DNA from: Eublepharis macularius
Lineage: Eukaryota; Chordata; Lepidosauria; Squamata; Eublepharidae
Assembly: GCF_028583425.1 (NCBI RefSeq)
Contig: NC_072799.1
Span: forward strand, 85,484,217 to 85,548,216
Direction: 5' to 3'
DNA: 64,000 nt
The notes below the pieces were generated by a model. That model searched no databases, was not told the DNA's origin, and saw only the letters and a list, made by a program, of their open reading frames with translations. Position numbers and translations under genes: made by a program. Numbering within the stretch: the stretch's first letter is position 1; every line of letters begins with the position of its first letter. Shown one piece after another: positions 24,101 to 64,000 of the stretch.

Positions 24101-26991
24101 TTTTTTTTAAAAAATAGAAGAGAAAATCAGGAATGGCTTATGCTACAGAAGATAAGTTTCTTTAAAGTGATGATGATTTTGTGATAGTTAATCCTGTTTC
24201 TTATCCTTAATCACCTTGTTTACATTGTGAATTCCACCTTGTGTTGACTCTGCCTCGTAACTTGCTGTTTTGGCTCATTATTGGGGACTCTATAACTGTG
24301 GCTGCAAATTATGAACCCTGGTAATCTTATCAATCTCTTGGGATGGGCAGAGGTGAAACATCAGCCAGATCTTTGTTTTCAGCCTTGAATGTACTCTTTT
24401 TTACCTTAAAGAAAACCAGGAATAATGTTAAAGGGTAGTTGCATCAAGACAGTTCAATCTGGAAATGTGGCTGTGATGTTTTCAAGGTATGTGAGGGTCC
24501 ACCTCTCCGTCTGTGGAAGTCTGCAATTGAAATCCCTGCCGTTCCCGAAGACGTCTTAAACCATATACTTAAAGAACAGCACCTTTGGGATGACGATCTT
24601 CTGGATGCCAAAGTGATCGAGACATTGGACAGCCAGACGGATATATACCAATATGTACAGAACAGCATGGTGCCACATCCCGCCAGAGACTATGTAGTCT
24701 TAAGGTAAATCCCTCGGTTTCTGATGGGAGAAATTTTAACCATTTCCCTTAGCCAGTTGTAGATGTCCCCATTCTTACTACAAGTCTGAGAAGACAACTC
24801 AAAGGCATTTAAAACTTGGTGTTTATAGAAGGAAAAAGGTTTGTTTTGCAGTAAGCCTTGATAACTGAATGCATACAGGAGAACATCAGCAGAATACGTT
24901 TATACCTTTCAGTCAACATGTAACAAACTGTTTACTCTACAAATGATCTCATGCAGTTCAGTAAACAAGTCAAACCAGAAGTACATGATCTTCAGAGAAT
25001 GATGGATTGACAGATGATAGTTTACATTTAGGAATGAGAACAGTCAAGCTGGCACCCACAAACCCCTGGCAGAACTGAGGGAGCAGGCATCCACGGCCAA
25101 GAGGATGTGTATGCAACTCTTTTGGCCTTTTAGAATAAGATAGATTAGAAACAGTAACATAGTTGTATTGTCGAAGGCTTTCACGGCCGGAGAACGATGG
25201 CTGTTGGGGGTTTTCCGGGCTGTATTGCCGTGGTCTTGGCATTGTAGTTCCTGACGTTTTGCCAGCAGCTGTGACTGGCATCTTCAGAGGTGTAGCACCA
25301 AAAGACAGAGACCTCTCAGTGTCACTTGTCTGTGGCAGCAAGTTATCTGCGGGTAGTGTGGATTCTCTCACGTAAGAGGGCCTGTTCTAGACGGTCATAA
25401 ATGCGGTTCGCCTGTGTGGTTTTGAAGATTCTTTTTTGTTGTGAGAAAAGATGGAATGGTTCTTGTGTCCCTGCAGCGTAGGAGAAAGGTTAAAGAACAG
25501 AGTTAGATGTGCTTTCTTGTTCCGAAGTGTTTCCAATCTCCGGGTCTGTTGGAATGTTTCCTCCCCGTAGAGGTGTTGGATGTATTGTCGAAGGCTTTCA
25601 CTGAGAGTGACACTGAGAGATCTCTGTCTTTCGGTGCTACACCTCTGAAGATGCCAGTCACAGCTGCTGGCAAAACGTCAGGAACTACAATGCCAAGACC
25701 ACGGCAATACAGCCCGGAAAACCCACAACAACCATAGTAACATAGTTATCATGATATTCTTAGAACTTGCTCTCTCAAGGCTGAGAGTGGAAGAAACACA
25801 TGCAGCTTTGTGTGTGTGTAGAAAAACTAGTTGACTGCAACTCTTAATAACCTTCAAACTGCAACACCTCAATGTGGCCGCATAAATGGCGATCAGAAAG
25901 TGTGTGAGAGATTTATGAGTAGAAATTGAACAATCTGGTTCAATGAAATAGTAAGCCAATAGGGTATTCCCAAAATTTCTCTAACAGTTTCTCACCGGTA
26001 GGCTTGTGAATGTGGGAGTCCACTGTTGCTGTAATTTAGCAACTGAAAGCAAATATATCAGTCAATTGATGGTGTTCAGTACTTTTTCCTAAACTTTTTT
26101 TTTTGTTTGAAATAGGACCTGTTTGAAATAGGACTGTGTTTCTTTTAAATAGGACTTGGAGAACAAACTTACCTAAGGGAGCTTGCGCTCTTCTGTGCTC
26201 CTCTGTGGAACATGACCGTGCTCCAGTTCTTGGCGTGCGAGTAAATGTTCTCCTGTCCCGGTATCTCATTGAACCATGCAGTTCAGGAAAATCCAAAGTT
26301 ACCTACATGTGTAGAATTGATTTAAGGTAAACTTTTCTACTTTGCTCTCTCTTTTTTTCCTGTTCTGCTTTTGGAATTGTGCAATCGCACTCTTGTGGAA
26401 ATTTGGGTTGCAGGGTAGCCGTAGGCTGGCACTGCTGCCCCATTCCATCCTGATTTTTCTACTGTAGGATGGAAAAATCATGAAATCTGTTTTAATTCAG
26501 GGCTGTGTAAGATTTGTCACCTGTGGTTCATGTAAGTGCAGAACTCTCAGGAGGTATTTTCCCTGGGCCAGTATCACATTTGACCACCAAATTCCATCTG
26601 TCCTGTTGGGTTTTGGATGTTCACATTTGTGCTGCCCTGATTCCTGTGTTTACAGTTGCTCTGAATGTTTTTGTCAGTCCATCCTCTGCTCGCAGATACG
26701 CTGTACCATTGGTTCTGCCGTCCATGACAAAGCAAAAATGTGACTCTTTGATTTGGATCTCCACCCATTTCCCCAACTGAACACCTGTCCTGAAAATCTC
26801 TGTTTCTTTTATATTTTTTCCACCAACCAGATAAGTTGCTTCACACATCTGTTTTCTTTTGTTAAAACAGGGGGCATAAGCCTGACTGGTATGCAAAAGC
26901 TTTCGGACATTTATGTGCAGCAGAAGTTGTTAAGATCAGAGATTCTTTCACTAAGCAGAACGTTGAGAATAAGGAAGCGAAATCCAGGTGA
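6060..26991 (+). CDS. DLC1: DLC1 gene, joined coding region (11 exons, 5' incomplete)
   Basis: Joining 6060-6123, 9518-10944, 13665-13841, 16307-16466, 17797-17995, 20835-21048, 21956-22070, 22332-22550, 24487-24704, 26153-26326 and 26871-26991 gives an unbroken frame of about 1028 codons. It matches the vertebrate DLC1 layout: linker after SAM, long serine-rich region, RhoGAP, START. DLC1 is known as a focal-adhesion GAP that switches off RhoA-type GTPases and acts as a tumour suppressor in mammals. The common human isoform is 1091 residues, so roughly 65 residues (the SAM domain) should lie upstream. Identity to DLC1 rather than STARD13 or STARD8 rests on recalled family sequence, especially the linker, the LD-like motif and the C-terminal tail. 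Every junction preserves phase. All introns are GT-AG except the one after 21048, which appears to be GC-AG. Confidence 0.95.
6660..7960. other. GC-rich then pyrimidine-rich intronic block
   Basis: Bases 6680-7090 are GC- and CpG-rich. Bases 7140-7930 are strongly C/T-rich on the plus strand. Long open frames on both strands reflect composition, are low complexity and have no recognised domain. Two TGACATCA octamers (6767-6774, 6783-6790) flank a CACGTG at 6776-6781. It could be a cryptic CpG island or a GC-rich repeat; I cannot tell which. Confidence 0.4.
7961..9517. other. Intronic sequence before the large exon
   Basis: No gene or clear repeat recognised apart from AT-rich tracts near 8580-8620 and 9020-9080. 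The acceptor for the 9518 exon is TTTCATTGCAG. Confidence 0.5.
9518..10944 (+). CDS. DLC1: DLC1 large central exon: serine-rich region with tensin- and LD-motif sites
   Basis: This 1427-base exon encodes about 475 residues plus two bases of a split arginine codon. It starts after TTGCAG with SEDSDEDEPCAISGKWTFQR and ends ASLTRSNR at AACAG|GTCAGT. The region is disordered and rich in Ser/Thr. It contains RLSIYDNVPGS at 10577-10609, the motif bound by tensin SH2 domains in mammalian DLC1, and LDDLLYHVKGMQ at 10670-10705, the LD-like motif that binds talin and FAK. Basic RSLLKRMESLKIK and serine runs such as SSSSSQSETSS are likely phosphorylation regions. These partners are known for the mammalian protein; conservation here is seen, function is inferred. 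No stop or frameshift interrupts the exon. Confidence 0.97.
11185..11376. repeat. Inverted Penelope-type repeat with decayed hammerhead core
   Basis: Head-to-head inverted arms around the phrases GACTAACCAACTT and AAGTTGGCTAGTC. The arm at about 11290-11330 contains GATGAAGAGAGCTGTGG then CTCTCAAAAGC, matching a hammerhead layout (CUGAUGA, stem II GAGA/UCUC, GAAA) with a C for the second core base and an A for the first G of GAAA. Same family as 37143-37345. Confidence 0.55.
12055..12400 (-). pseudogene. L2/CR1-type LINE reverse transcriptase fragment
   Basis: The minus strand encodes the C-terminal part of a LINE reverse transcriptase. Landmarks are VTSRLDYCNALYKGLPSKS, then LQLVQNSTACFL and HITPILQSF. 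The fragment is truncated at both ends and lies in a DLC1 intron. Confidence 0.75.
12530..12606. repeat. TTCC/TTTC simple repeat
   Basis: Near-pure C/T microsatellite made of TTCC and CTCC units. Confidence 0.85.
13665..13841 (+). CDS. DLC1: DLC1 exon: helical segment before RhoGAP
   Basis: This 177-base exon runs from CCTTGAAG|GCACCG to AGCTG|GTGAGA. It encodes HRMRWHSFQTSHRPSL, then SSASLQINCQSVAQMNLLQK, then YSLLKLTALLEKYTPSNKHG and FSW. In DLC1 this stretch lies just N-terminal to the GAP domain and is the most conserved part of the linker. Both ends are split codons (arginine on the left, tryptophan on the right) that complete correctly across the introns. Confidence 0.95.
13940..14165 (-). 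repeat. CA-rich microsatellite and tRNA-derived SINE
   Basis: CACG/CACA units at about 13947-13976 are followed by a minus-strand SINE. Its head (complement of 14100-14160) has box A TGGCTCAGTGG and box B AGGTTCAATC, as in a tRNA-derived pol III promoter. It is not a functional tRNA, since no cloverleaf 3' half follows. Confidence 0.7.
14165..16306. other. Intronic sequence, no gene recognised
   Basis: Contains an (AC)n run at about 14440-14462, a C-run at 15009-15017 and AT-rich DNA from 15500 to 16030. No coding exon of DLC1 is missing here: flanking exons join in phase. Confidence 0.55.
16307..16466 (+). CDS. DLC1: DLC1 exon: start of RhoGAP domain
   Basis: This 160-base exon begins after TTTTCAG. 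It encodes AVPKFMKRIKVPDYKDRNVF, then GVPLTVNVQRTGQPLPHSIQ, then QAMRYLRSQCLDQ. The phrase FGVPL followed by a Q-rich helix is the usual opening of a RhoGAP fold. The donor is CAG|GTTAGA, phase 0. Confidence 0.95.
16949..17160 (-). repeat. 5S rRNA-derived SINE
   Basis: The segment at about 17070-17160 (GGTCTCCCATCC, then ACCCTGCTTAGCTTCT, then ATCAGGCTCACCTGGG) is the complement of the internal-promoter half of vertebrate 5S rRNA, diverged. A non-5S body continues to the left. The same SINE occurs at about 29001-29200, 35889-36085, 55559-55758 and 62447-62643. Confidence 0.75.
17338..17708. mobile_element. Foldback MITE, member of the 4611 family
   Basis: Ends are TTTCTCTACACGAGA and CTTGTGTAGAGAGACTC. 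Inverted arms share the AGAGCCTTC and CTCTGTCAG segments seen at 4611-4921. It sits just upstream of the arginine-finger exon. Confidence 0.65.
17797..17995 (+). CDS. DLC1: DLC1 exon: RhoGAP catalytic arginine-finger exon
   Basis: This 199-base exon begins VGLFRKSGVKSRIQALRQMN. The arginine of GLFRKSG, codon 17809-17811, is the RhoGAP arginine finger, the residue that completes the GTPase active site. The exon continues NYEGQSAYDVADMLKQFFRD and LPEPLLTNKLSETFLQIYQ, where LPEPL is a second RhoGAP hallmark. It ends with a single T before GTAAGC, completed as tyrosine by the next exon. All catalytic landmarks look intact, so the protein should be GAP-competent. Confidence 0.97.
18409..18930 (-). 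repeat. Two tRNA-derived SINEs in tandem, minus strand
   Basis: Each unit reads, on the minus strand, tRNA-like head (GGTTAAGAG, box B GGTTTGATTCC), body (CACAGCTTCTCAGAG) and tail ending in TATAAATAGAATG-type sequence with CAA/ATA microsatellite. The second unit lacks the tail. The same SINE is at 34125-34345 and 42426-42678 (plus) and 37586-37815 (minus). Confidence 0.75.
19375..19556. mobile_element. Short foldback MITE
   Basis: Near-perfect inverted arms of about 60 bp from GGCCATTTTCACACTGCTTA to its complement at 19537-19556, with CGTTCTGGGAGCT near the centre. Flanking TTT on both sides would be a 3-bp target duplication. No open frame. Confidence 0.75.
19557..20834. other. Intronic sequence, no gene recognised
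   Basis: Low-complexity C-run at about 20100-20118. No exon or complete repeat could be supported. Confidence 0.5.
20835..21048 (+). CDS. DLC1: DLC1 exon: C-terminal half of RhoGAP, GC donor
   Basis: This 214-base exon follows TTATGCAG. It encodes YVPKDQRLQAIKAAIMLLPD, then ENREVLQILLYFLSDVTAAV, then KENQMTPTNLAVCLAPSLFH and LNTLKRENSSPR. NLAVCLAPSL is the conserved final RhoGAP helix motif. The conserved reading SSPR-VMQRK needs the exon to end at 21048, where the donor is AAG|GCAAGT, a classic GC donor. A GT donor (CAG|GTAGCT) lies 12 bases downstream at 21061. Using it would insert four residues (QVSR) in frame. Confidence 0.93.
21208..21641. mobile_element. Foldback MITE, member of the 4611 family
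   Basis: Outer ends GAGAGTCTCTCTCTACACGA and GTCTTGTGTAGAGAGACTCT. Between the arms is an unrelated or diverged insert (about 21375-21530). It lies in the intron that begins with the GC donor. Confidence 0.6.
21956..22070 (+). CDS. DLC1: DLC1 exon: RhoGAP-START connector
   Basis: This 115-base exon follows a T-rich tract ending ATTAG. It encodes VMQRKQSLGKPDQKDLNENL and AATQGLGHMIAECKKLFQ. It includes the last RhoGAP helix, and the donor is a strong CAG|GTGAGC. The first base completes the arginine codon left by the GC-donor exon. Confidence 0.95.
22332..22550 (+). CDS. DLC1: DLC1 exon: START domain, first part
   Basis: This 219-base exon (73 codons, phase 0 at both ends) begins IPEEMSKCRNSYTEQDLRPL and continues TLEELGRNSNSEPADYRSYI, then QDCMDDLLKEIKDKFKGWVS and CSTSEQAELAYKK. 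It forms the start of the lipid-binding START domain. The donor is AAG|GTATAT. Confidence 0.95.
23399..23648. mobile_element. hAT-like MITE (CAGGGC ends)
   Basis: Ends CAGGGCTTTTTTC and AAAAAAAGCCCTG. The interior is a long palindrome centred near 23520, with arms containing GATCTCCAGACAGAGGGGAG and its complement. Relatives are at 31066-31387 (copied at 57624-57945) and 51939-52246. Confidence 0.8.
24487..24704 (+). CDS. DLC1: DLC1 exon: START domain, middle
   Basis: This 218-base exon encodes VCEGPPLRLWKSAIEIPAVP, then EDVLNHILKEQHLWDDDLLD, then AKVIETLDSQTDIYQYVQNS and MVPHPARDYVVLR. The acceptor (TTTTCAAG) has a modest pyrimidine tract, and the exon opens with GTATGT, which itself resembles a donor. 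Length and sequence agree with DLC1 START; residue 2 is Cys where human DLC1 has Ser, as I recall it. The donor is AAG|GTAAAT. Confidence 0.95.
25165..25735. mobile_element. Penelope-derived inverted-repeat insertion with two hammerhead-like cores
   Basis: Flanked by perfect 12-bp target duplications AGTAACATAGTT (25153-25164 and 25736-25747). The left arm (25165-25316) and right arm (about 25575-25735) are inverted copies. Each has a hammerhead-like layout: CUGAAGA (right arm 25645-25651), stem II GCCAG/CUGGC, then AAAACGUC where GAAACGUC is expected. The change at the G of GAAA should abolish cleavage. It carries no protein gene. Penelope-like elements are known to encode hammerhead motifs in their terminal repeats. 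Confidence 0.75.
26153..26326 (+). CDS. DLC1: DLC1 penultimate coding exon, START domain (duplication copy 1)
   Basis: This 174-base exon follows TTTTAAATAG. It encodes TWRTNLPKGACALLCSSVEH, then DRAPVLGVRVNVLLSRYLIE and PCSSGKSKVTYMCRIDLR. It is the beta-strand-rich core of START. The exon lies 86 bases inside the left edge of the 11.4-kb duplicated block and is repeated unchanged at 52712-52885. Confidence 0.95.
26871..26991 (+). CDS. DLC1: DLC1 last coding exon with stop (duplication copy 1)
   Basis: After TTAAAACAG the exon reads GHKPDWYAKAFGHLCAAEVV and KIRDSFTKQNVENKEAKSR, then TGA at 26989-26991. This is the C-terminal START helix and tail of DLC1. The length of the tail matches the family, so the stop is the genuine one. 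It is repeated exactly at 53430-53550. Confidence 0.95.
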
Positions 26992-29900
26992 CTACTGAAG
27001 CAGACCAACTCTGCATTCAACCCGCCACAGTCGGTGTGCATCAGTGCGCCCAGGAGCTCCTGATTGTTTGCTGCAGAACGGATCCTGGTGTGGTCTGAAG
27101 TTCTCATGTGAACCAAGAGTATCTGGAATTGGTCTGATATTCTCACTCAAAATGCTGGGGCAATACCATGAATTTTAAAGCTGCTTCTTCCTGTTGTTGT
27201 TAGGCCTATCGTATAGGCCTTGACTGGAATATATTGGACATTACACAAAAAGAATTTTTAAAGTATATTATTCTATGTATGAATTGCTTCTGAGAAGCAA
27301 CATTCGAAGAAATGTATTCTGGAATACAGTGGGAAATGATTTTCCCTTTGCATATGTATCTGTGTGCTGTTTGTTGAGGGACTGTTGCAGCCACTGGATG
27401 TGTTGGTACTCTTCACTGTCGTCCTCTCTAAAGTAAGTGAAGGAAGGTTTGCACAGAGACAAAGGTGTTGAACGGCTGTCTGAATTTTGGACAGCCTTGG
27501 ATACAGGTTTAGTAGAAGCACAGTGTCTGGTACACTCAAAGGCAATTAGGAAGAGTCTTCATGTTGTGAGGAAAGAGTTCAGCCTGGGATTTTTGCCTGC
27601 CCAGCAGACCTTCAGAAGCTTGTCTTGTGTGTCACGCATAAATAAATGGGGCAGGACTAAGGAAGGCAAAACATGATGCCCAATGAAGAATTTATGGGAG
27701 AGGTTAAAAACGTCCAATGCGCTTCAGTATGTCTCTTTCAAGGGCAGTGGCTCTGTATCTTCTCCTGTTTGAAAGAAGTGTTCTCCACATCTTGACATGG
27801 AGGCAAATAAGCCTTTTCCCCTGGAGTGTATGCTTAACAGCCTCATGTACCTCTATGAAATGAATTTGCCACAGTCACATTTTAAACATCAAGGTGACCA
27901 TTTAAAAAACAATACATGCATTGGCGCTTAGAGTTCTAGCTCTCAATATGCTCTATATTGGGAAAAGATGCTAGTAGAAACATATTCACTGTGTTTAATT
28001 CAACTCTCTTTTTCCATGTATGTATATACCCATCATTTTATCCATACGCTCCTGCTAAGAAACAGGCCAGATTCGTAACTGACCTTGTTTGTTTGGATCT
28101 CATAGGAAAGAAGAGAAAGCTTAAAGGCACAATAGTAGAGCTGACGTTGCTTTCAGCAGCTTAAAGAAAAATAGCACTGGAAAAAATAGTATAACTGGAG
28201 CATAAAACATTCTAAAGTCATCCAGTGTAATAGATACTGTGTTAGGAGTTTGAAGGTGTTCATATCATCTGCTCTCACACAACCGTATTAACCTCATTTA
28301 GCCAAATGCTTGGGGCGGGGGGGATTTCCCAAATCCTGAGCTTTGTTGAAGGTTGGATAAGCGAAATGATTGTTGCTGTTAGATTACTTGAGGCAAATTG
28401 AAGGACTGCAGGTCAGGAGCATGGCAGATGGGGCAGTACGTTGCACAGACCAGTGGCTTTCAGAGGAAAACCCAGACCTGTTAACTCCATCACCACGAGC
28501 ATTCGGATGGCCATAGCCAGTGACATCTGGGTAGGGGCTTGCAGAATCAATGTGTTTCTGAAAGTAGTACACTCACTGTTTCAGGTGTTGCCAGAAAAAC
28601 CTCTCACTCTTTTGCGGGGAGGAGTATCACGTTGTCAAATATGACATACGCAAGAGAGAATCAAGAAAGCTTCTTTGTAAAAAAAAAAAAAAAAAGTTTG
28701 GGTGCAAGAAGGTAAAAACAGAGTGGCAAGAGAGGGCAGAGGGGGTCCTTTTGTGATGGACTTCCCCAGTGTTTCAGACCCCACAGGATTATGCTTCAGG
28801 TGCACCTCCATCTCTAGGTATGAGATAGCCATAACAGATGCTGTTCAATTCTACTGCTGTTCTGTCATTCAGTGTTGAAGTATATCCAGTTGGATTCAGG
28901 CTATATTTTCCTATTTATTTTATTTATCTTATTTTGTGATGTTTATAGTCTGCCTTTCTCACTGAAGACTCAAGGTGGGATACAGGATGGTGGTGGTAGA
29001 GAGAGCCCTCAAGTCAGAGTTGATATATGGCGACTCCTGGTGGGATTTTCGTGGCAAGAGACTAACAGGTGGTTTGCCATTGAATGTCTCTGCAGCCCAG
29101 GTCTTCGTTGGAGGTCTCCCATCCCATTACTAACCAAGGCCAGCCCTACTTAGCTTCTGAGATCTGACAAGATTAGGCTCACCTGGACTATCCAGGGCAG
29201 GGATACAGGATAAAATCAACCCCCAAAAATCAACAGTGTAGACAAACAGCGTAAGACAACCCAAAGAAAACTGCAATAGGACTACAGTTACAGAACTAGG
29301 GAACACTGCAAACAACTTACAATAATCATTGTCATGGATTACATCTTACTTTATTATAATAATGGTGCCCTTCTGGGCAGAATGGAACTCCACCTCCCCT
29401 CTCTACATCCCACCAGCCTCTACAAAATGCTGTTTCTGGGAGATGAGGGCTCCAGGAGAAAGTTACGAGGGAGGGCTGCAGAAGGAAGGAGGAATCAGTG
29501 GAAATGGCCAGTTTGGTCTGGATCTAACTCATAATCTCCAAGAGCAGGTCTTTGACTCTTGCTGTGAATCTTGCCCTGCCAACCCCCAGAAACTTGCAAT
29601 TGTGTCCTGTGTAAGGTTTGTGCTTTGGTATAGAGATGCACTATTAGTATAGAGATGCACTGAACAAGTATGAGTAAGGTATGAATGAAAAATATAAAAT
29701 GGAAGATAGATGGTTGGGTGGTGGTGGTTTAAAACAAAGGCTTTAAAGAGAGACCCATCCTTAGAGTTGTCCTGTCCCAGGCTTTCTGACTTTTCAGTGT
29801 CTTTTAAAACTCCTTTCTGTGTCCCTACAACCAGGGACAACTGCTAAGCTGTGCATTGGACCAAAGATGGTGTGAAGTTGGCCTGTTCGTTCCATCTTCC

Positions 29901-31570: not shown

Positions 31571-33474
31571 ATATTTGAATTTGTGAAGCAGTTGAATTCC
31601 ACTGACTTTATGTGGCCAATTTTTTGGAAGAGTTATAAACAGATGGATTCTAAACCAATTATGTAGCTCTAATCCACCCTACAGGCCAATGACCAACTCT
31701 CTTATATGCTGATGTTGCAACTTAAACGATGTAAACTGGTTTCACGTTGCCGTAGAACACTAGGATTGGAGTCCAGTGGCACCTTAGACACCGACAGAAT
31801 TTTTCGGCTATGAGCTTTTGAGAGTCAAAGCTCTCTTCATCAGACTTTCTTCAGATGTAAGCTAAGAGTAGGATTTTTCAGTAATGGCACCTTACCTGAG
31901 GCCCACCTGGCACCTTCGTTGCTCTCTTTTATGTACCAGCCCCAAAATGTTTCTATTCATCTAAGCTTCTAATTAAGGGATTGATTGATCTTTTAATGCT
32001 ATTTTCATCTGGAAACTTACTTTAAGCTATCAGTGGTCTGTATGGCCTTTTTATATTTTAGGCTGATTTAAATGCTGGATTTTAATTAATATCTTTTAAT
32101 CCACCTTGGGATCCTACTTGGGTGGAAAGGCAGCATACAAATACTTTAAATGTTTTGTTTTTACAAGCAAGGGACATCTCATTTCCCCTCCCCCACTGTT
32201 TCCCCTTCCTGAAAGCCTCTACTCCTCCTTCCCTTCTGCTTCCTCCTGTCTTTCCCACCTACCGGCCAACGTACTTTATCTGCTCTCCTGTCTTCACTTT
32301 TCCCTCCTTCTCTTCCCCTGACATCCCCTACCTGAGAAAACTGGTGCCGTAAGGGCCAATCCACCCATGCATGGTGGAGAACCAGCAAGGACTTGTAGGG
32401 GCTACTTGACTTTCCCGTTTCCCCTTCTCTTTCCATTTCCCTACTTCCTTCTCCCCCACCAGCCAACCTACCTTTTATCTGCCATCTTTCCTCAGCTAAA
32501 TTTATTATTAACTTATTTCATTTATACCCCAACTTTCTCCCAAATGGGCACCCAAAACTCCCATTTTATCCTCACAGCAACCCTGTGAGGCAGGTTAGAC
32601 TGGCAGAACACAACTGGCCCAAGGTCACCTGGTGAGCTTCCATGGTGTTTTCCACTGGGTTTCCCAGATCCTAATCTGAAACTCTTAACCACTATGCCAC
32701 GCTGGCTTTCATGGGGTAGTAGTTGTTGCACAGAAGCCAGCTGCCGAGCCTGAGTTGACACCATGTAGTAGCAAGTCGCCTGATGGTTGCTGCCAGACCT
32801 GGCCACAGTCCTTCTTCCATGGGTGGATTGGCCACTGTGGCACCAGCACACCTCCTCATGGACTGATGGCCTTTCCCCAAGCTTGACTGTCCAGTCCCAT
32901 TACAGAAGGCCTGCACCCAGCCTACCTGAGCTCCACACAGCACCGGCGAGGTGCCTCCTAGCTTGGCCAAGCCTCGAGAAGTACAGATGAGGCCGGCAGT
33001 ACCTAGACAAGTAGGAGGTGCCTGGCGTTGGGGGGCCGGAGCAGGCACCGTGCCCCTAACATCTCAGAATTCACTGCAAAACTGGGGTGTTTCTCTTATG
33101 CTTGTAGAAAGATCTGTCGTGTCTGTTCACGGCTTCAGTCTCTGAATTTAGCCGCATTGAGAGTTAGATATATTAATTGTTTAGCAGAGTTTTTAATTGG
33201 TTTAAACTCCTCTTCAGACTCTGAGAAGCTGCTTTCTCTCCTGTCTGATACTGCTGCATTTGTTTCTTTCAGAGTCTCTCTTTTCGCCTTAGCAGCCAAG
33301 AAAATTCGGGCTACAGCTGTTTCCAGTGATAGCAATGCTTTTATATGACTGGTATTTTCTGCCTAGATCATTTTAATCTCTCAATATTTGTACATATGTT
33401 TATATGTTAGACTGTTTTATGTGTTTTATGCATATGGATTGTAAAGGCCTTTGGCCACAAACAATAAACCTAAT
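31571..33474. other. Downstream intergenic DNA with SINE and LINE remnants
   Basis: Includes a decayed hammerhead-type repeat at about 31760-31870 (minus-strand CTGATGAAGAGAGC then CTCAAAAGC) and a minus-strand tRNA-type SINE at about 32505-32712. A likely LINE 3' end at about 33060-33473 finishes with ACAATAAACC. No host gene recognised. Confidence 0.5.
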
Positions 33475-33630
33475 GTATTGTCGAAGGCTTTCACGGCCGG
33501 AGAACGATGGTTGTTGTGGGTTTTCCGGGCTGTATTGCCGTGGTCTTGGCATTGTAGTTCCTGACGTTTCGCCAGCAGCCGTGGCTGGCATCTTCAGAGG
33601 TGTAGCACCAAAAGACAGAGATCTCTCAGA
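33474..33630 (-). ncRNA. Hammerhead-ribozyme-like sequence with intact core
   Basis: On the minus strand, about 33610 to 33550, the sequence has CUGAAGA (33597-33591), stem II GCCAGC...GCUGGC with loop CACG, then GAAAC with the first G at 33570, and GUC (33565-33563) as cleavage triplet followed by AGG that can pair with CCU before the core. All invariant core bases are present. It belongs to the same repeat as 25165-25735 and is copied at 60032-60188. Activity is inferred, not shown. Confidence 0.6.
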
Positions 33631-51938: not shown

Positions 51939-52246
51939 CAGGGCTTTTTTTCTGGGAAAAGAGATGGTGGAACTCAGTGGGTTGCCAGCACAGGGGGCAA
52001 CTCTGGGCGGGAGGTGGTGCCCCTGGTACCACACACGCACGTGCAAAGTGCGCACACGCTCCCAGGACTGCACAATGATGTCACTTTTGGTCAGCTGGAA
52101 CAAGGGGGAGTTTTTTAAAGTTTAAATTGCCCTTGGAGAAAATGGTCACATGGCCAGTGGCCCCACCCCCTGATCTCCAGACAGAGGGGAGTTTAGATTG
52201 CCCTCTGCGTCAGCTGCGCAGAGGAAAAGCTAAACTCCCATTATAA
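51939..52246. mobile_element. hAT-like MITE, right part lost
   Basis: Starts CAGGGCTTTTTTTCTGGGAA like 31066 and keeps the TTTAAAGTTTAAATTGCCC interior. It is cut off where the next LTR begins. Confidence 0.7.
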
Positions 52247-52580
52247 AAAAGCTAAACAACCATTATAGTCCACTATCCAAGATACAATGATCTTGGCTGA
52301 TACATGAGTATTGTTACGAATGACAGGCAAAAGCAATGGTACAGAATAGCAATCCCATGTAGGCCCCATCCTCCCCCACAGTTCTCAAAACAAACGGCCC
52401 GAGGGTGAGAAAGTGAAAGCTTCCCAAGGCTGGAAAAGTTGTAGACATAACATTCCTCTTCTCTCTGTGATGTTCCAATGAACTGCTTGCCACCTGCAAC
52501 AGAAGCACTTAAAATATTGACAAGATTAAAATGGAGTCTCTTTGGTTTGAAGACATATAAAACATAGTCAGAACCTGACA
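52247..52580 (-). mobile_element. Truncated LTR of the TGTCAG/CTGACA family
   Basis: Complement of the LTR from about its ACTATAATGG segment to the terminal CCTGACA at 52574-52580. Roughly 90 bp of the LTR 3' end is missing. Diverged from the other copies. Confidence 0.8.
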
Positions 52581-52625
52581 GAGCTTTTGTGAGTCACAGA
52601 TCACTTCTTCAGATAAAGTGAGCTG
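52581..52625 (-). repeat. Hammerhead-type repeat fragment at the duplication junction
   Basis: The minus strand reads CTGAAGAAGTGATCTGTGA then CTCACAAAAGCTC: core CUGAAGA, stem II GUGA/UCAC, and AAAA in place of GAAA. It ends exactly where copy 2 of the duplication starts. Confidence 0.55.
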
Positions 52626-52711
52626 TGATGGTGTTCAGTACTTTTTCCTAAACTTTTTTTTTTGTTTGAAATAGGACCTGTTTGAAATAGGACTGTGTTT
52701 CTTTTAAATAG

Positions 52712-52885
52712 GACTTGGAGAACAAACTTACCTAAGGGAGCTTGCGCTCTTCTGTGCTCCTCTGTGGAACATGACCGTGCTCCAGTTCTTGGCGTGCGAG
52801 TAAATGTTCTCCTGTCCCGGTATCTCATTGAACCATGCAGTTCAGGAAAATCCAAAGTTACCTACATGTGTAGAATTGATTTAAG
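52712..52885 (+). CDS. DLC1: Second copy of DLC1 penultimate coding exon
   Basis: Identical to 26153-26326, including acceptor TTTTAAATAG and donor AAG|GTAAAC, so it remains splice-competent. No upstream DLC1 exon is duplicated with it inside the window. It could be reached only by splicing over copy 1, or it is an orphan or an assembly duplicate. Confidence 0.85.
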
Positions 52886-53429
52886 GTAAACTTTTCTACT
52901 TTGCTCTCTCTTTTTTTCCTGTTCTGCTTTTGGAATTGTGCAATCGCACTCTTGTGGAAATTTGGGTTGCAGGGTAGCCGTAGGCTGGCACTGCTGCCCC
53001 ATTCCATCCTGATTTTTCTACTGTAGGATGGAAAAATCATGAAATCTGTTTTAATTCAGGGCTGTGTAAGATTTGTCACCTGTGGTTCATGTAAGTGCAG
53101 AACTCTCAGGAGGTATTTTCCCTGGGCCAGTATCACATTTGACCACCAAATTCCATCTGTCCTGTTGGGTTTTGGATGTTCACATTTGTGCTGCCCTGAT
53201 TCCTGTGTTTACAGTTGCTCTGAATGTTTTTGTCAGTCCATCCTCTGCTCGCAGATACGCTGTACCATTGGTTCTGCCGTCCATGACAAAGCAAAAATGT
53301 GACTCTTTGATTTGGATCTCCACCCATTTCCCCAACTGAACACCTGTCCTGAAAATCTCTGTTTCTTTTATATTTTTTCCACCAACCAGATAAGTTGCTT
53401 CACACATCTGTTTTCTTTTGTTAAAACAG

Positions 53430-53550
53430 GGGGCATAAGCCTGACTGGTATGCAAAAGCTTTCGGACATTTATGTGCAGCAGAAGTTGTTAAGATCAGAG
53501 ATTCTTTCACTAAGCAGAACGTTGAGAATAAGGAAGCGAAATCCAGGTGA
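53430..53550 (+). CDS. DLC1: Second copy of DLC1 last coding exon
   Basis: Identical to 26871-26991, ending in TGA at 53548-53550. It encodes the same START C-terminus, so use of either copy would give the same protein. A second copy of the whole 3' UTR and its poly(A) signal (58112-58117) follows. Confidence 0.85.
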
Positions 53551-56500
53551 CTACTGAAGCAGACCAACTCTGCATTCAACCCGCCACAGTCGGTGTGCAT
53601 CAGTGCGCCCAGGAGCTCCTGATTGTTTGCTGCAGAACGGATCCTGGTGTGGTCTGAAGTTCTCATGTGAACCAAGAGTATCTGGAATTGGTCTGATATT
53701 CTCACTCAAAATGCTGGGGCAATACCATGAATTTTAAAGCTGCTTCTTCCTGTTGTTGTTAGGCCTATCGTATAGGCCTTGACTGGAATATATTGGACAT
53801 TACACAAAAAGAATTTTTAAAGTATATTATTCTATGTATGAATTGCTTCTGAGAAGCAACATTCGAAGAAATGTATTCTGGAATACAGTGGGAAATGATT
53901 TTCCCTTTGCATATGTATCTGTGTGCTGTTTGTTGAGGGACTGTTGCAGCCACTGGATGTGTTGGTACTCTTCACTGTCGTCCTCTCTAAAGTAAGTGAA
54001 GGAAGGTTTGCACAGAGACAAAGGTGTTGAACGGCTGTCTGAATTTTGGACAGCCTTGGATACAGGTTTAGTAGAAGCACAGTGTCTGGTACACTCAAAG
54101 GCAATTAGGAAGAGTCTTCATGTTGTGAGGAAAGAGTTCAGCCTGGGATTTTTGCCTGCCCAGCAGACCTTCAGAAGCTTGTCTTGTGTGTCACGCATAA
54201 ATAAATGGGGCAGGACTAAGGAAGGCAAAACATGATGCCCAATGAAGAATTTATGGGAGAGGTTAAAAACGTCCAATGCGCTTCAGTATGTCTCTTTCAA
54301 GGGCAGTGGCTCTGTATCTTCTCCTGTTTGAAAGAAGTGTTCTCCACATCTTGACATGGAGGCAAATAAGCCTTTTCCCCTGGAGTGTATGCTTAACAGC
54401 CTCATGTACCTCTATGAAATGAATTTGCCACAGTCACATTTTAAACATCAAGGTGACCATTTAAAAAACAATACATGCATTGGCGCTTAGAGTTCTAGCT
54501 CTCAATATGCTCTATATTGGGAAAAGATGCTAGTAGAAACATATTCACTGTGTTTAATTCAACTCTCTTTTTCCATGTATGTATATACCCATCATTTTAT
54601 CCATACGCTCCTGCTAAGAAACAGGCCAGATTCGTAACTGACCTTGTTTGTTTGGATCTCATAGGAAAGAAGAGAAAGCTTAAAGGCACAATAGTAGAGC
54701 TGACGTTGCTTTCAGCAGCTTAAAGAAAAATAGCACTGGAAAAAATAGTATAACTGGAGCATAAAACATTCTAAAGTCATCCAGTGTAATAGATACTGTG
54801 TTAGGAGTTTGAAGGTGTTCATATCATCTGCTCTCACACAACCGTATTAACCTCATTTAGCCAAATGCTTGGGGCGGGGGGGATTTCCCAAATCCTGAGC
54901 TTTGTTGAAGGTTGGATAAGCGAAATGATTGTTGCTGTTAGATTACTTGAGGCAAATTGAAGGACTGCAGGTCAGGAGCATGGCAGATGGGGCAGTACGT
55001 TGCACAGACCAGTGGCTTTCAGAGGAAAACCCAGACCTGTTAACTCCATCACCACGAGCATTCGGATGGCCATAGCCAGTGACATCTGGGTAGGGGCTTG
55101 CAGAATCAATGTGTTTCTGAAAGTAGTACACTCACTGTTTCAGGTGTTGCCAGAAAAACCTCTCACTCTTTTGCGGGGAGGAGTATCACGTTGTCAAATA
55201 TGACATACGCAAGAGAGAATCAAGAAAGCTTCTTTGTAAAAAAAAAAAAAAAAGTTTGGGTGCAAGAAGGTAAAAACAGAGTGGCAAGAGAGGGCAGAGG
55301 GGGTCCTTTTGTGATGGACTTCCCCAGTGTTTCAGACCCCACAGGATTATGCTTCAGGTGCACCTCCATCTCTAGGTATGAGATAGCCATAACAGATGCT
55401 GTTCAATTCTACTGCTGTTCTGTCATTCAGTGTTGAAGTATATCCAGTTGGATTCAGGCTATATTTTCCTATTTATTTTATTTATCTTATTTTGTGATGT
55501 TTATAGTCTGCCTTTCTCACTGAAGACTCAAGGTGGGATACAGGATGGTGGTGGTAGAGAGAGCCCTCAAGTCAGAGTTGATATATGGCGACTCCTGGTG
55601 GGATTTTCGTGGCAAGAGACTAACAGGTGGTTTGCCATTGAATGTCTCTGCAGCCCAGGTCTTCGTTGGAGGTCTCCCATCCCATTACTAACCAAGGCCA
55701 GCCCTACTTAGCTTCTGAGATCTGACAAGATTAGGCTCACCTGGACTATCCAGGGCAGGGATACAGGATAAAATCAACCCCCAAAAATCAACAGTGTAGA
55801 CAAACAGCGTAAGACAACCCAAAGAAAACTGCAATAGGACTACAGTTACAGAACTAGGGAACACTGCAAACAACTTACAATAATCATTGTCATGGATTAC
55901 ATCTTACTTTATTATAATAATGGTGCCCTTCTGGGCAGAATGGAACTCCACCTCCCCTCTCTACATCCCACCAGCCTCTACAAAATGCTGTTTCTGGGAG
56001 ATGAGGGCTCCAGGAGAAAGTTACGAGGGAGGGCTGCAGAAGGAAGGAGGAATCAGTGGAAATGGCCAGTTTGGTCTGGATCTAACTCATAATCTCCAAG
56101 AGCAGGTCTTTGACTCTTGCTGTGAATCTTGCCCTGCCAACCCCCAGAAACTTGCAATTGTGTCCTGTGTAAGGTTTGTGCTTTGGTATAGAGATGCACT
56201 ATTAGTATAGAGATGCACTGAACAAGTATGAGTAAGGTATGAATGAAAAATATAAAATGGAAGATAGATGGTTGGGTGGTGGTGGTTTAAAACAAAGGCT
56301 TTAAAGAGAGACCCATCCTTAGAGTTGTCCTGTCCCAGGCTTTCTGACTTTTCAGTGTCTTTTAAAACTCCTTTCTGTGTCCCTACAACCAGGGACAACT
56401 GCTAAGCTGTGCATTGGACCAAAGATGGTGTGAAGTTGGCCTGTTCGTTCCATCTTCCTTACTTGCATTGAAGAAAAGGACCACACAGCTTAGAGGTTGC

Positions 56501-58128
56501 CTTACAACTTGGGCCCTTTCCTGGTTTCTCCATCTCAAAGCAGTGACATGGCTGGAAGCAGCCCTCGGTTACCATTATCAGTATTATTGCTTTTAAAGTT
56601 TTTGTGATGAAGAATTGTGATGGTGCCAACAGGCTTGTATTGTGCTTGTAGGCATGGCCAGTGCCTGCATCGTTACCCCGTGTAATTTTGTCTTGTTTTT
56701 GTTTTGCCCTTCCCCTCATTGTTCTTTGCACATTTTGTAATAACCACACACACAGGAAAAAAGTCAACACAGGAAATAGTAGGGAGAAAAGATGTGATAC
56801 GGCAAGCCTTGCATTTGATCCTTTTCAAGCAACAAACAGACGGGAACAATGTTCTTCCCAGAAGTTGTGAAGAACATTGCAGGGTGTCAGTGCAAGCTCT
56901 AATGAAACTTTGACTCCTCTTTTGCAAACCTAAAGGTATACATGATACAACCAAGGATCAGGTGTGGACTAATACCAACTCTTTTGGATTATGTTACGAG
57001 ACTCCTCCTGGAGGGGAAAGTAGCTGTGTTAGATTATACAGTTGTGTCCCCACCCTCAGTGGTTGTGAGGCCAAACTACGCGTTCAGTTTTTAACAAGTT
57101 CGTTCCACATTCTCTGCAGCTCCACAGCAGCTGCGGGGAATGGCTTTTTGTAAAAAATAAAGGAGAGTCCAAACAGGCTTGGAATGAGACTGTGGGTGCA
57201 TTCCACCTTCAAGACATTTTCCTGCACAGAAACAGCACTGAGGAGGAATACATACCCATTTTTGCTGTTTTGATAACAAGCAGAAGTCCTTCCTCTCCCT
57301 GCAGCTGTGTTCTGAGCCTGTTTGGGCTCTTTTATTTTTTAAAACCATTCGCCGTAGCTGCTTTGTAGATGCAAGGAACCCAGACCCAACTCATTAAAAA
57401 CCCGGACGTGTAGTTTGGCCAGCTGAGTGTGTTTAGGATCACAACATTAGTATTCCTCATGAATAGGGCAACCTTGTGCATTCTTTGTATACTGTCCTAA
57501 ACATTTAAATGTGTGAAAATATATGTTGTACATACCGTTCTGTTGTAAACGTGTACACTTGCTTACAGTTAATTGTCCAGTATAGATAAAGCATGAACAT
57601 AATTATTTAAATATACTTGTATTCAGGGCTTTTTTCCTGGGAAAAGAGGTGGTGGAACTCAGGACCGCACAATGATGTCACTTTGGGTCAGCTGGAACAA
57701 GGGGGGAGTTTTTTAAAGTTTAAATCACCCTTGGCGAAAATGGTCACATGTCCGGTGGCCCAGCCCCCTGATCTTCAGACAGAGGGGAGTTTAGATTGCC
57801 CTCCGCGCTGTAGCGCAGCGGCACGGAAAGCAATCTCAACTCCCCTCTGTCTGGAGATCAGGGGGGCGGGGCCACCGGACATGTGACCATTTTCAAGATG
57901 TGCCGGAACTCCGTTCCACCACGTTCCCGATGAAAAAAAGCCCTGCTTGTATTTATACCTCAGATATTCTTTTGGGGGAGGGGAGGATTTTGTACCTCAA
58001 GTTGTCTCCCCTTCGTCCACCCTCATGTAAATAACTTTTCCACAATTAAGGTCTCAGTAAAAGAAGAAAAGGTTTATATCTTGCTGTTATATGTCTGTAC
58101 AGTATATAATCAATAAATGCACTATTAA
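53551..58128 (+). other. DLC1: Second copy of DLC1 3' UTR
   Basis: Repeats 26992-31570 with a poly(A) run one base shorter at about 55238-55253. It contains the duplicate MITE at 57624-57945 and the duplicate AATAAA at 58112. Confidence 0.75.
57624..57945. mobile_element. hAT-like MITE, duplicate copy
   Basis: Repeat of 31066-31387 with the same CTTGTATT flanks, inside duplication copy 2. Confidence 0.88.
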
Positions 58129-60031
58129 ATATTTGAATTTGTGAAGCAGTTGAATTCCACTGACTTTATGTGGCCAATTTTTTGGAAGAGTTATAAACAG
58201 ATGGATTCTAAACCAATTATGTAGCTCTAATCCACCCTACAGGCCAATGACCAACTCTCTTATATGCTGATGTTGCAACTTAAACGATGTAAACTGGTTT
58301 CACGTTGCCGTAGAACACTAGGATTGGAGTCCAGTGGCACCTTAGACACCGACAGAATTTTTCGGCTATGAGCTTTTGAGAGTCAAAGCTCTCTTCATCA
58401 GACTTTCTTCAGATGTAAGCTAAGAGTAGGATTTTTCAGTAATGGCACCTTACCTGAGGCCCACCTGGCACCTTCGTTGCTCTCTTTTATGTACCAGCCC
58501 CAAAATGTTTCTATTCATCTAAGCTTCTAATTAAGGGATTGATTGATCTTTTAATGCTATTTTCATCTGGAAACTTACTTTAAGCTATCAGTGGTCTGTA
58601 TGGCCTTTTTATATTTTAGGCTGATTTAAATGCTGGATTTTAATTAATATCTTTTAATCCACCTTGGGATCCTACTTGGGTGGAAAGGCAGCATACAAAT
58701 ACTTTAAATGTTTTGTTTTTACAAGCAAGGGACATCTCATTTCCCCTCCCCCACTGTTTCCCCTTCCTGAAAGCCTCTACTCCTCCTTCCCTTCTGCTTC
58801 CTCCTGTCTTTCCCACCTACCGGCCAACGTACTTTATCTGCTCTCCTGTCTTCACTTTTCCCTCCTTCTCTTCCCCTGACATCCCCTACCTGAGAAAACT
58901 GGTGCCGTAAGGGCCAATCCACCCATGCATGGTGGAGAACCAGCAAGGACTTGTAGGGGCTACTTGACTTTCCCGTTTCCCCTTCTCTTTCCATTTCCCT
59001 ACTTCCTTCTCCCCCACCAGCCAACCTACCTTTTATCTGCCATCTTTCCTCAGCTAAATTTATTATTAACTTATTTCATTTATACCCCAACTTTCTCCCA
59101 AATGGGCACCCAAAACTCCCATTTTATCCTCACAGCAACCCTGTGAGGCAGGTTAGACTGGCAGAACACAACTGGCCCAAGGTCACCTGGTGAGCTTCCA
59201 TGGTGTTTTCCACTGGGTTTCCCAGATCCTAATCTGAAACTCTTAACCACTATGCCACGCTGGCTTTCATGGGGTAGTAGTTGTTGCACAGAAGCCAGCT
59301 GCCGAGCCTGAGTTGACACCATGTAGTAGCAAGTCGCCTGATGGTTGCTGCCAGACCTGGCCACAGTCCTTCTTCCATGGGTGGATTGGCCACTGTGGCA
59401 CCAGCACACCTCCTCATGGACTGATGGCCTTTCCCCAAGCTTGACTGTCCAGTCCCATTACAGAAGGCCTGCACCCAGCCTACCTGAGCTCCACACAGCA
59501 CCGGCGAGGTGCCTCCTAGCTTGGCCAAGCCTCGAGAAGTACAGATGAGGCCGGCAGTACCTAGACAAGTAGGAGGTGCCTGGCGTTGGGGGGCCGGAGC
59601 AGGCACCGTGCCCCTAACATCTCAGAATTCACTGCAAAACTGGGGTGTTTCTCTTATGCTTGTAGAAAGATCTGTCGTGTCTGTTCACGGCTTCAGTCTC
59701 TGAATTTAGCCGCATTGAGAGTTAGATATATTAATTGTTTAGCAGAGTTTTTAATTGGTTTAAACTCCTCTTCAGACTCTGAGAAGCTGCTTTCTCTCCT
59801 GTCTGATACTGCTGCATTTGTTTCTTTCAGAGTCTCTCTTTTCGCCTTAGCAGCCAAGAAAATTCGGGCTACAGCTGTTTCCAGTGATAGCAATGCTTTT
59901 ATATGACTGGTATTTTCTGCCTAGATCATTTTAATCTCTCAATATTTGTACATATGTTTATATGTTAGACTGTTTTATGTGTTTTATGCATATGGATTGT
60001 AAAGGCCTTTGGCCACAAACAATAAACCTAA

Positions 60032-60188
60032 TGTATTGTCGAAGGCTTTCACGGCCGGAGAACGATGGTTGTTGTGGGTTTTCCGGGCTGTATTGCCGTG
60101 GTCTTGGCATTGTAGTTCCTGACGTTTCGCCAGCAGCCGTGGCTGGCATCTTCAGAGGTGTAGCACCAAAAGACAGAGATCTCTCAGA
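60032..60188 (-). ncRNA. Hammerhead-ribozyme-like sequence, duplicate copy
   Basis: Exact repeat of 33474-33630 with the same intact core bases (CUGAAGA at 60155-60149, GAAA from 60128). Confidence 0.6.
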
Positions 60189-60682
60189 GAGATCTCCTTG
60201 GAGAGGCAGCATAAGAACTTTCTAAATAAATAATAGAAAACTTTTTTTGGCCCAGGTGCTAAAACCATTGCAGCAAAGAGGTTGGTATGGCAGCAAACAA
60301 AAGGAGGTAGGAGAAATGAGGTCAGACACAAATGGAGCAAGCCTAGCCCCGCATCTCAGGGGTTGTCCTTAGACTCAGCTAGAGGTTGCAGACATCTGGG
60401 GGCAATGCTGGGTGTAACATATGCCTGCTGCTTTCTCATATGCCAGTGACCCCAATTGTTCTACCAAGGCCTCCATTGTTAGGGTGGAGATCTGGCCCTG
60501 TTTCTGCACAAAATTGTCAGGTGTACTGCTGTCAGCATGTGTACTGGGGGCTGTCTATAATTTAATCAGAAACAAAGGGTTGAATCTAGACTAAATTTTC
60601 CAGTGGCAGAATGGAACTTTTGAACTGATCGCCATTAAATAGGGTAAATAGATAAAAGTTCCCAAAGACAAAGCATTAGTGG

Positions 60683-60903
60683 TTAAGAGCAGCAGGACTC
60701 TAATCTGGAGAGCCGGGTTTGATTCCCCACTCCTCTGCTTGAAGTCAGCTGGGTGACCTTGAGTCAGTCACAGCTCTCTCAGAGCTCTCTCAGCCGCACC
60801 CACCTCACAGGGTGATTGTTGTAAGGATAATAATAACATCCACTCAGAGCGGTTTACAAAGTATGTTAAGTTGTTCTGAAAGGGGGTATATAAATTGAAT
60901 GTT
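60683..60903 (+). repeat. tRNA-derived SINE, duplicate copy
   Basis: Repeat of 34125-34345 inside duplication copy 2. Confidence 0.8.
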
Positions 60904-61654
60904 GTTGTTTATTATTATCATTTAATCATGCCTATTAAGCACTATCCATTCGCCATTTTAAAACTAAAAGAGCATGTAAATATTGTTCTGAGGTCATTAA
61001 CTGATGAACAGTCCTCAAGTGTTCCAGCTTAACTGTTTTCTGGATCAGGATGTAAAAGTCAGCGTATCAAATGGGGTCGATGCAACAGTGACTTGCCAAA
61101 ACAGAGAGAAGACTGAAGCCTGTCTATTATAGGGACTATTTAAAAAAAAAAACAACCACCAATTTGCACAGGGAGGAGGAAATGGTGTTGCCTGTTCAGG
61201 AAATGTGCAAGTTCCTTCCAAACAAAAGGACACAAGGCCAGAATTGGCAATAAATCGGTGAAAGTTTAATGCTTGCCTTGCAGAGGAAGGAAGCCAAAAA
61301 TAGAACAGTGGCCTTCATGTGCGGCTTAAACCAAGTAAGAGCTTATGGGAAATCAGCTGCAAAATTTCAAAAGTAAGTAGTCCATGAAAATAACACTTGT
61401 GTCTCTGGGGGGGGGAGGGGAACGAGATTCCTCTTTCTTCTTGGGGGCCGCATTTATGAATTGCCACATCAGTAATTAAGTCATCGATGCTGTGCGGTAA
61501 AGCTTGGGCCCTCCTTGCAGCTTTTCTCCAGCTGTGCTTCCAACCAAGTGTCAAAGCTCCCTGCCTTTTCAGTAGGGCAGCTCTTTACCAAAGATAAAAC
61601 TGAGGAAAGAGGATCAAGGGAAGAGATTGCCACAGGTCCTGGATGGACAACATT

Positions 61655-62643
61655 TAATTTATTTTATTTATTTATGTCATTTACAGTCCGCCTTTCTCAC
61701 TGAGACTCAAGGCGGATTATACAGTATGAGATTAGTACAGTCAATATTAAGAACATTTCCATAAACAATGTCGTAGGGTAAATAGATACAAGTTCACAAA
61801 GACATAGCATTAGCAGGAATCCAGTACAACATAGTGGGGAAGTCTATGGTTCCTAACCCATAAGCAGATCATCTGAGATCCCCTCCCTACAATACACCCT
61901 ATCTGATTAAAAACTTTTTTGAATAATTCAATTTTGCATCATTTGTGGAAAGCCAGGAGAGTGGGGGCTCTCCTGGCCTCCTCAGGCAGGCCATTCCACA
62001 GGGTAGGGGCCACCACAGAGAAAGCCCATGTATGGGCTGCTGTCTATTTTGTCGATGTGCAGGTGGCTCCTGCAGAAGCTCCTGTTCGGAAGAGCGAAGC
62101 TGCCATGGAGGAGCATAGGGAGGGAGGTGGTCCCGTAGATATGCCAGACCAAGACTATGAAGAGCTTTGTAAGTGAACCGATACCTTGAACTGAGCACGG
62201 CAACTGATGGGTAGCCAGTGGAACGACTGCAGGATGGGAGTGATGTTCATGCTCCTGCTGCTCCTGATAACAGTCAAGCCACAGCATTTTGCACCCGTTG
62301 GAGTCTCCTGCTTAGGTTACACGGGTGACCTATGTATAGGTGCATTACAATAGTCAAGTCTTGATGTTACCATAGCATGGATCCAGGCGGCCAGGTCAGC
62401 CATGCCGAGGTAAGAAGCCATTTTCCAGGTGGTGGTTTATTACTGTGGTGGTGGAGAGTGCCCTCAAGTCATAGCTGATTTATGGTGACACACACCCCCG
62501 GTGGGGTTTTCATGGCAAGAGCCTAACAGCGGTGGTTTGCCATCACCTGCCTCTGCAACCCTGGTCTTCTTTGGAGGTCTTCCATCCAACTACTAACCAA
62601 GGTTGACCCTGCTTAGCTTCTGAGATCTGTCGAGATCAGGCTC
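61655..62643 (-). repeat. L2 fragment and 5S-SINE, duplicate copies
   Basis: Repeats 35097-36085 of copy 1. Confidence 0.75.
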
Positions 62644-64000
62644 ATCTGTTACTACTCCCCTTATATTAAGATTATGGCCTGTATATGTTCTTTGTTGACT
62701 GTCTATCTATCTATGTTTTGTCTTTTCACCTATTTTTATGTATTTATGTAAAAATAGGTGAAAAGACAAAGCAGGAAACTCGTTTTTGCTACCGCAGCCA
62801 TGGCTACCCTTCTGGAATTCTCATAGCTGCAGAGAAATAGGTCATCATTTTGCTTACTACAAAAATTTGATCATTTCAAAGGATAAAAAGTATATTTGAG
62901 TGTGTAATGATGGAATGATAAAAGAACACCAGTTTTCCTTACGGCCTGATTGGCAGGATGGGAAGGGTCACCGTATCCCAGTTATTCAATATTATGATTT
63001 GAATACTAGGTCAGTGCATTGGATAAGCTGATGGGAAGAAGTAACCACTGTTTTCTGTATGCGGCACCCACCCACCCCCCAAAAAGTTACAGGCTACAAA
63101 AAGGCACTGTCTTCCACCTGTCTTCCTTCCAGGCAAGGCCTCCCCACCCCTCATTAGTTGATAACTTCGAGCTGATTTCAACATCTTGAATAAATTTAAA
63201 AGTATGTTGAAGACTCAGGAGTTTCTTTAAACCACTATCAAGCCATGTATTCTGAATATCATTCGTTTGGGATAGAGGCTTCCTGCCAATTAATGTTTTA
63301 TAAATGTCTGTGAAATCATCCCCTTTTTTCTGGCACATTCATTCCTCTCACTAGCTAATGTTTTCAGAGTGCCTGGCAACTGAGTCCTAAACATTTGCCA
63401 TGACAAATCTGCTCGCGCAGGCAGAGTAAAGTTTCTCTGTTGCTGGCACATAATCTGACAGTTTATGACAATATGGCCTTGCAAGGTTAGGTGCGCCGCT
63501 AAGCAGCTTTTTCCTGGCACAGCAACTCTGGCTCTTGATCAGTTCCAAGGCTACATTTTCATGTAGGTGCAGTCCGATTTTGTGGGTCGTCATGTGGGTA
63601 TGCTGTGCCCGTTCCCACATTACAAAACCGCATGAGTCTATATATAGAAAGGTGGGGTCAAGTACGCACAAGCCTTTGGAAATGCTCACATAACACTTTA
63701 GTAGAAAAGAGTCCAGTAGCACCTTTAAGACTAACCAACTTATTTGTAGCATAAGCTTTTGAGAATCACAGCTCTCTTCATTAGATGCACCTGACTAAGA
63801 GAGCCGTGGTTCTCGAAAGCTTATGCTACAAATAAGTTGGTTAGTCTTAAAGGTCCTACTGGACTCTTTTCTATTTTGCTACTACAGAATAACACGGCTA
63901 ACTCCTCTGGATCTAAAACTGTTTAGTAGAATGTTAGGGTGTGCAATTTTGTTTTTACTTACTTCATTTTGGCCACTACTATTCCTGCACACTACTGCAG

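Follow-up and report, generated by a model that had tools for sequence, protein, structure and literature searches.

The 64,000 nucleotides of leopard gecko (Eublepharis macularius) DNA analysed here, the window, carry the coding end of DLC1 on the plus strand. Coding exons 5 to 14, numbered as in the human gene, lie in order at 9518-26991 with splice sites, an open frame of 1007 aa and a stop. The individual exons are found at 9518-10944 (exon 5), 13665-13841 (exon 6), 16307-16466 (exon 7), 17797-17995 (exon 8), 20835-21048 (exon 9), 21956-22070 (exon 10), 22332-22550 (exon 11), 24487-24704 (exon 12), 26153-26326 (exon 13) and 26871-26991 (exon 14 with the stop). The name DLC1, given in the initial annotation, is right (DLC1 is RhoGAP 7), since the species' own RhoGAP 7 protein matches with 100% identity over 1007 residues and the product contains RhoGAP and START domains. 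Part of a preceding exon was recovered on the same strand at 6052..6123 by tblastn (24 residues aligned, all identical, E 8e-10) and corresponds to residues 508-531 of the 1538-residue leopard gecko DLC1 protein; residues 1-507 gave no tblastn match in the window. The upstream DLC1 exons are mostly located outside the window.

A stretch of this DNA appears twice in the assembly. BLASTN comparison of the window with itself aligns 26067..37442 (copy 1, as far as copy 2 is visible) with 52626..64000 (copy 2) over 11,376 columns, of which 11,375 are identical, with 0 mismatches and 1 gap. The only difference is the length of an A run, A17 at 28679-28695 (plus strand) in copy 1 compared to A16 at 55238-55253 in copy 2. 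This bears out the near-perfect 11.4-kb direct duplication, with a single homopolymer A gained or lost, described from the letters alone. Both copies are in plus orientation and thus form a direct repeat. The bases immediately outside the copy starts (26066 and 52625) already differ, and because the sequences diverge at once the left boundary is sharp. On the other side, the match extends to the last base of the window, which cuts copy 2. The putative tandem unit on the plus strand, 26067..52625, therefore has a length of 26,559 bp only as the distance between the two copy starts; its right end is inferred, and the visible part of copy 2 covers 11.4 kb. The window contains no N, including at the junction 52625/52626. 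A match of such length and identity cannot have arisen by chance. The initial annotation rightly proposed two alternatives for it, namely that the stretch was duplicated in tandem very recently or that one piece of DNA was placed twice.

Copy 1 starts in DLC1 intron 12, 86 bases upstream of exon 13, and exons 13 and 14 are the only DLC1 exons within the copied stretch. Hence, copy 1 completes the coding end, while copy 2 holds a two-exon orphan on the plus strand, with a second exon 13 at 52712..52885 and a second exon 14 with stop at 53430..53550, identical to 26153-26326 and 26871-26991, respectively. Under either reading, duplication or assembly error, the coding part of DLC1 ends at 26991. 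The statement that the repeat changes how the 3' end of the gene is read is not supported, as exons 5-14 are complete at 9518-26991 and copy 2 merely adds identical exons 13 and 14 downstream. We considered and rejected an altered DLC1 protein through copy 2, since the first copy is complete. Annotation of copy 2 as a separate small protein is weakly disfavoured: a search with the exon 13-14 peptide, in which proteins more than 1.75 times the query length were excluded, returned 22 proteins, none of them named as leopard gecko (for 21 of these no organism is given). A further gene with a known domain hidden in the unit was likewise rejected as far as the Pfam scan reached: it covered the retroelement's ORFs and 10 ORFs picked from the longer ones, and the latter gave 0 matches.

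The degree of identity is informative about the origin of the copies. Heterozygosity of a single leopard gecko is given as 0.35% and 0.38% (Pinto et al., quoted in PMC13371695, from the part of that text used here), which predicts about 40-43 differences between two haplotypes over the 11,375 aligned bases, where 0 substitutions are found. The remark that two haplotypes would normally differ more is thus backed by published values, with the caveat that inbreeding makes homozygous stretches possible in captive animals; according to an excerpt of the same source (PMC13371695), pet-trade leopard geckos have been inbred in the past and are low in diversity. Most likely, judged from the sequence, both copies derive from one haplotype. 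With a reptile mean mutation rate of 1.17e-8 per generation (PMC9995274, in the section cited), 0 substitutions in 11,375 bases give a 95% upper bound on the age of about 11,300 generations, a figure that presupposes a real duplication and no gene conversion.

The junction 52625/52626 cuts a palindromic repeat at 52581..52628 on the plus strand, with a left arm at 52581-52613 and a right arm from 52616. Up to 52628 the right arm is complementary to the left arm at 12 of 13 positions, and beyond that point the match ends. From the left arm, the original continuation after 52625 is predicted to be TGACTCAC, and the unit starts with TGATGG, so that three bases (TGA) would fit both sides of the join, the original sequence being deduced from the palindrome arm. 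The chance of the TGA fit is 1 in 64, or about 0.05 when any overlap of at least 3 is counted on both sides. Only 3 of 200 shuffles fold better, as DNA, than the palindrome at the junction. Of three similar repeats elsewhere in the window, two carry both arms in full. The third, at 31812-31844, is by BLASTN the one that most resembles the left arm, and its right arm is entirely absent, hence the arm at the junction may never have continued. A further counterpoint is that, among 2000 places taken at random from the window, 27 score as well as the arm seen at the junction. BLASTN of 25867-26267 and 52226-52640 against the window revealed no repeat common to both unit edges. A hammerhead ribozyme at the junction repeat was considered and rejected, as Rfam gave no hammerhead hit in 52500-52700 or in 11180-11420 at E values of up to 5. 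The cut palindrome would point to a microhomology join at 52625/52626 if the original sequence was as its left arm predicts, although one of the three similar repeats has a single arm.

By a narrow margin we favour a leopard gecko duplication that is head-to-tail, very recent and about 26.56 kb long over one made by the assembler, and give it close to an even chance of being correct. What is observed is that the two copies are nearly identical, that their left edge is sharp, that copy 1 holds the whole coding end and that a new junction lies inside one palindrome arm. The duplicated span would begin in DLC1 intron 12, include exons 13 and 14 and extend into sequence downstream of the gene. It seems plausible that a break or a stalled replication fork occurred within the palindrome at about 52625 and that the broken end became linked to a point near 26067 in intron 12, helped by the shared TGA, in an end-joining or template-switching event that would have laid the second copy behind the first. 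No effect on the protein would be expected, as the reading frame is already complete with the first copy, and the second exon pair has no preceding exons; even splicing of exon 12 to the second pair would give the identical product. In one human set of clustered germline CNVs, 30 of 63 resolved junctions have microhomology of at least 2 bases (PMC6258378, as excerpted), however the same excerpt counts 33 interspersed and only 3 tandem duplications, making the set a rough yardstick for the join in the leopard gecko. The fact that the copies differ solely in a homopolymer length is an observation that speaks against a tandem duplication. So does the length of the unit: Pinto et al. reportedly obtained, in 2023, a HiFi read N50 of 20.4 kb for the reference assembly; the 26,559-bp unit is longer, and an assembler could hardly have spanned it. 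A fuller version, in which a tandem duplication of the DLC1 3' exons segregates in captive geckos, is at most about 11,300 generations old, was seeded by the palindrome beside a retroelement-derived repeat and gives a second 3' end, appears unlikely to us.

The main rival holds that the assembler set the same DNA down twice while the genome has a single copy of it; the cause could be an overlap between the ends of contigs or unitigs, a graph loop that was unrolled or the filling of a gap. This is a serious possibility, although we would put it below an even chance. Identity of the copies is what is expected if one haplotype was used twice, and homopolymer length is a common long-read error, which the single A17/A16 difference resembles. 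However, the copy spacing of 26.6 kb exceeds the usual HiFi read length. Tandem copies of this kind are found where contigs meet, and many are roughly as long as a read (PMC8081667, in the part cited). The absence of N from the window counts against this rival, but a contig boundary closed without N would be invisible, and wrong gap filling sometimes joins false copies with no N between them (PMC9516828, as far as excerpted). Duplicated BUSCO genes amount to 1.8% in both leopard gecko assemblies of one table in PMC12774848, the excerpt of which does not give the false share. The cut palindrome and the three bases that both sides of the junction would share can be expected from a blind end-to-end join only by chance, an argument that is weakened because the repeat at 31812 is one-armed.

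Heterotype false duplication, with both parental haplotypes in one scaffold that are identical here since the captive animal was inbred, is improbable. The low diversity and inbreeding history of pet-trade animals (PMC13371695, as above) would allow it, but none of the differences expected from the published heterozygosity is seen. Moreover, assembly normally collapses identical haplotypes. Still less probable is a dispersed direct duplication, in which a segment of at least 11.4 kb was inserted into the palindromic repeat at 52625 and ends before the equivalent of 52625 and which fits the mere 11.4 kb visible of copy 2, but needs two new joins where a tandem copy needs one.

DLC1 is a tumour suppressor. 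The leopard gecko is used for tumour studies, according to the portion of PMC13371695 cited. If real, the very recent tandem duplication would place a young structural variant in a cancer gene of a tumour-study species, and PCR could test its join. Otherwise the repeat is a concrete assembly error: for short reads derived from DLC1 exons 13 and 14 there would be two equally good mapping positions, and these reads could drop out of variant, copy-number and expression analysis. The term DLC1 occurs 0 times in the main text of either PMC9516828 or PMC13371695, and among the titles listed by a literature search none concerns this locus.

Several known systems produce similar arrangements. NAHR tandem duplications share the direct repeat of a long unit but depend on long homology, whereas BLASTN found no repeat common to both edges within the window. 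In heterotype false duplications a gene part is likewise copied beside itself; these are recognized by haplotype-specific variants, while the gecko copies are free of substitutions. Homotype false duplications (Rhie et al. 2021, PMC8081667; Ko et al. 2022, PMC9516828; in the parts cited) resemble the locus in having near-perfect direct copies that lack haplotype differences (0 substitutions in 11,375 bases) and here differ in one homopolymer; the gecko copies have no gap between them, a gap or contig boundary being usual, not obligatory. Non-recurrent tandem CNVs formed by microhomology joining (MMEJ, FoSTeS/MMBIR) differ in that the microhomology in the gecko is deduced from a repeat arm and the right end of copy 2 lies beyond the window. 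With these, the locus shares copies in direct order, a single new join in the visible sequence, three bases predicted to be common to both sides of it and edges without long homology between them.

We show here that the window sequence contains the 3' end of the DLC1 gene twice. Self-comparison of the window revealed one long direct repeat, 26067-37442 (copy 1) against 52626-64000 (copy 2), with 0 substitutions and 1 gap in 11,376 columns, which bears out the near-perfect repeat described in the initial annotation. That gap lies in a homopolymer of 17 A in copy 1 (28679-28695) and 16 A in copy 2 (55238-55253). Outside the left edge of the two copies the flanks diverge immediately, the right edge of copy 2 coincides with the window end, and the window contains 0 N. 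The unit of 26,559 bp proposed earlier (26067-52625) holds as the spacing of the two starts, but not as a proven unit, copy 2 being visible only to the equivalent of 37442.

DLC1 (Rho GTPase-activating protein 7) is encoded on the + strand by ten coding exons, which join at the usual splice sites, bar one GC donor, into an open frame of 1007 residues plus stop. The GC donor at 21049, after exon 9 (AAG/GCAAGT), belongs to a GC-AG intron. Over its full length the frame is 100% identical to the 1538-residue rho GTPase-activating protein 7 isoform X2 of Eublepharis macularius, and the next four matches are other geckos (91-92%). RhoGAP and START domains were found in the product, its C-terminal 170 residues align with a solved chain of STARD13, and exon 5 contains a match to a PDB chain of RhoGAP 7, 23 residues long. 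The protein has 531 residues ahead of exon 5; 508-531 are found at 6052-6123, whereas those before 508 match nowhere in the window; hence, the gene starts upstream of it. The unit begins in intron 12, 86 bases upstream of exon 13, and the repeated stretch takes in exon 13, exon 14 with the stop codon, and 10 kb or more of the DNA downstream. Copy 1 lies in native order behind exon 12, therefore the DLC1 coding part is complete at 26991. In copy 2, exons 13 (52712-52885) and 14 (53430-53550) are unchanged and lack preceding DLC1 exons. None of ten ORFs chosen from the unit had a Pfam match. The DLC1 protein would be unaltered by the second copy, and the new join is 52625/52626, while 26066/26067 is ordinary intron.

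Directly left of this junction lies a 33-base repeat arm (52581-52613), whose reverse complement begins at 52616, matches at 12 of 13 positions and stops three bases into copy 2; 27 of 2000 random window places score as well. Three similar arms exist elsewhere in the window. A complete second arm comes after two of them, at about 11241 and 37195, with scores that 5 and 6 of 2000 random places attain; after the third, at 31812-31844, there is none (1797 of 2000). We prefer the reading that the right arm, which would originally have continued as TGACTCAC, was severed after 52625 and joined to a site likewise starting with TGA, although this is not certain because one similar arm is one-armed. 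By chance the three shared bases would agree with a probability of 1 in 64, and any overlap of at least three, both sides counted, would arise with one of about 0.05. As single-stranded DNA the junction palindrome reaches -10.4 kcal/mol (z -2.29), equalled or bettered by 3 of 200 shuffles, and an 8-base palindrome, TCAATTGA at 26062-26069, contains the unit start. BLASTN found no repeat common to both unit edges, therefore recombination between repeats is not a likely source.

Several other repeats occur in the window. The Penelope-like retroelement at 43558-47997 has an ORF of 547 aa (45425-47065) that matches a reverse transcriptase and, slightly below the Pfam cut-off, GIY-YIG; its two best-scoring database relatives are from Anolis (45% identity) and leopard gecko (43%). 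It is bracketed by direct repeats (43558-43913 and 47642-47997, 96.6% alike), with more diverged copies at 40145-40537 (about 69-73%) and 52253-52583 (84%), the latter in opposite direction and adjoining the junction palindrome. Palindromic repeats lie at 25149-25319, 25606-25738, 33459-33629 and 51019-51194. Sub-threshold Rfam matches within 51041-51172 concern several unrelated microRNA families, mostly on the - strand and one on both strands, and look palindrome-driven rather than like a microRNA. A tRNA-like sequence on the - strand (42882-42951), which at 31.4 bits exceeds the cut-off of 29, is probably a tRNA-derived repeat or pseudogene; ARAGORN called no tRNA in the window. A further repeat of about 0.8 kb forms an inverted pair (1224-1959 and 41348-42185, 87-89% alike).

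We lean towards a very recent tandem duplication, with a confidence close to evenly poised. The missing gap, the features of microhomology joining at the join and copies closer than two haplotypes all point to a true event. Reads of the reference assembly reportedly have an N50 of 20.4 kb. Tandem duplications exceeding read length are a known hard case, according to a figure legend in PMC10462168, therefore a copy number of two may be inexact even if the join is real. Placement of one haplotype's DNA twice by the assembler (a homotype error) is only slightly less likely: such errors arise where contigs meet and frequently have roughly the length of a read (PMC8081667), and absent haplotype differences do not count against it. 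A gap, of which the window has none, most often but not always separates false copies (PMC9516828). It is improbable that both haplotypes were placed, since single-animal heterozygosities of 0.35% and 0.38%, quoted from Pinto et al. in PMC13371695, predict about 40-43 differences against 0 seen, unless the animal was homozygous by descent at this locus; the same paper describes low diversity and inbreeding in pet-trade leopard gecko lines. That copy 2 is a dispersed copy is hardest to credit.

If real, the tandem duplication dates back no more than about 11,300 generations, using the reptile mean rate in PMC9995274. The kind of event is ordinary, and the finding is useful for checking the assembly and the mapping of reads to DLC1. 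One set of human clustered germline rearrangements offers only a rough yardstick, because it counts 33 interspersed and 3 tandem duplications (PMC6258378); there, 30 of 63 resolved junctions had microhomology of at least 2 bases.
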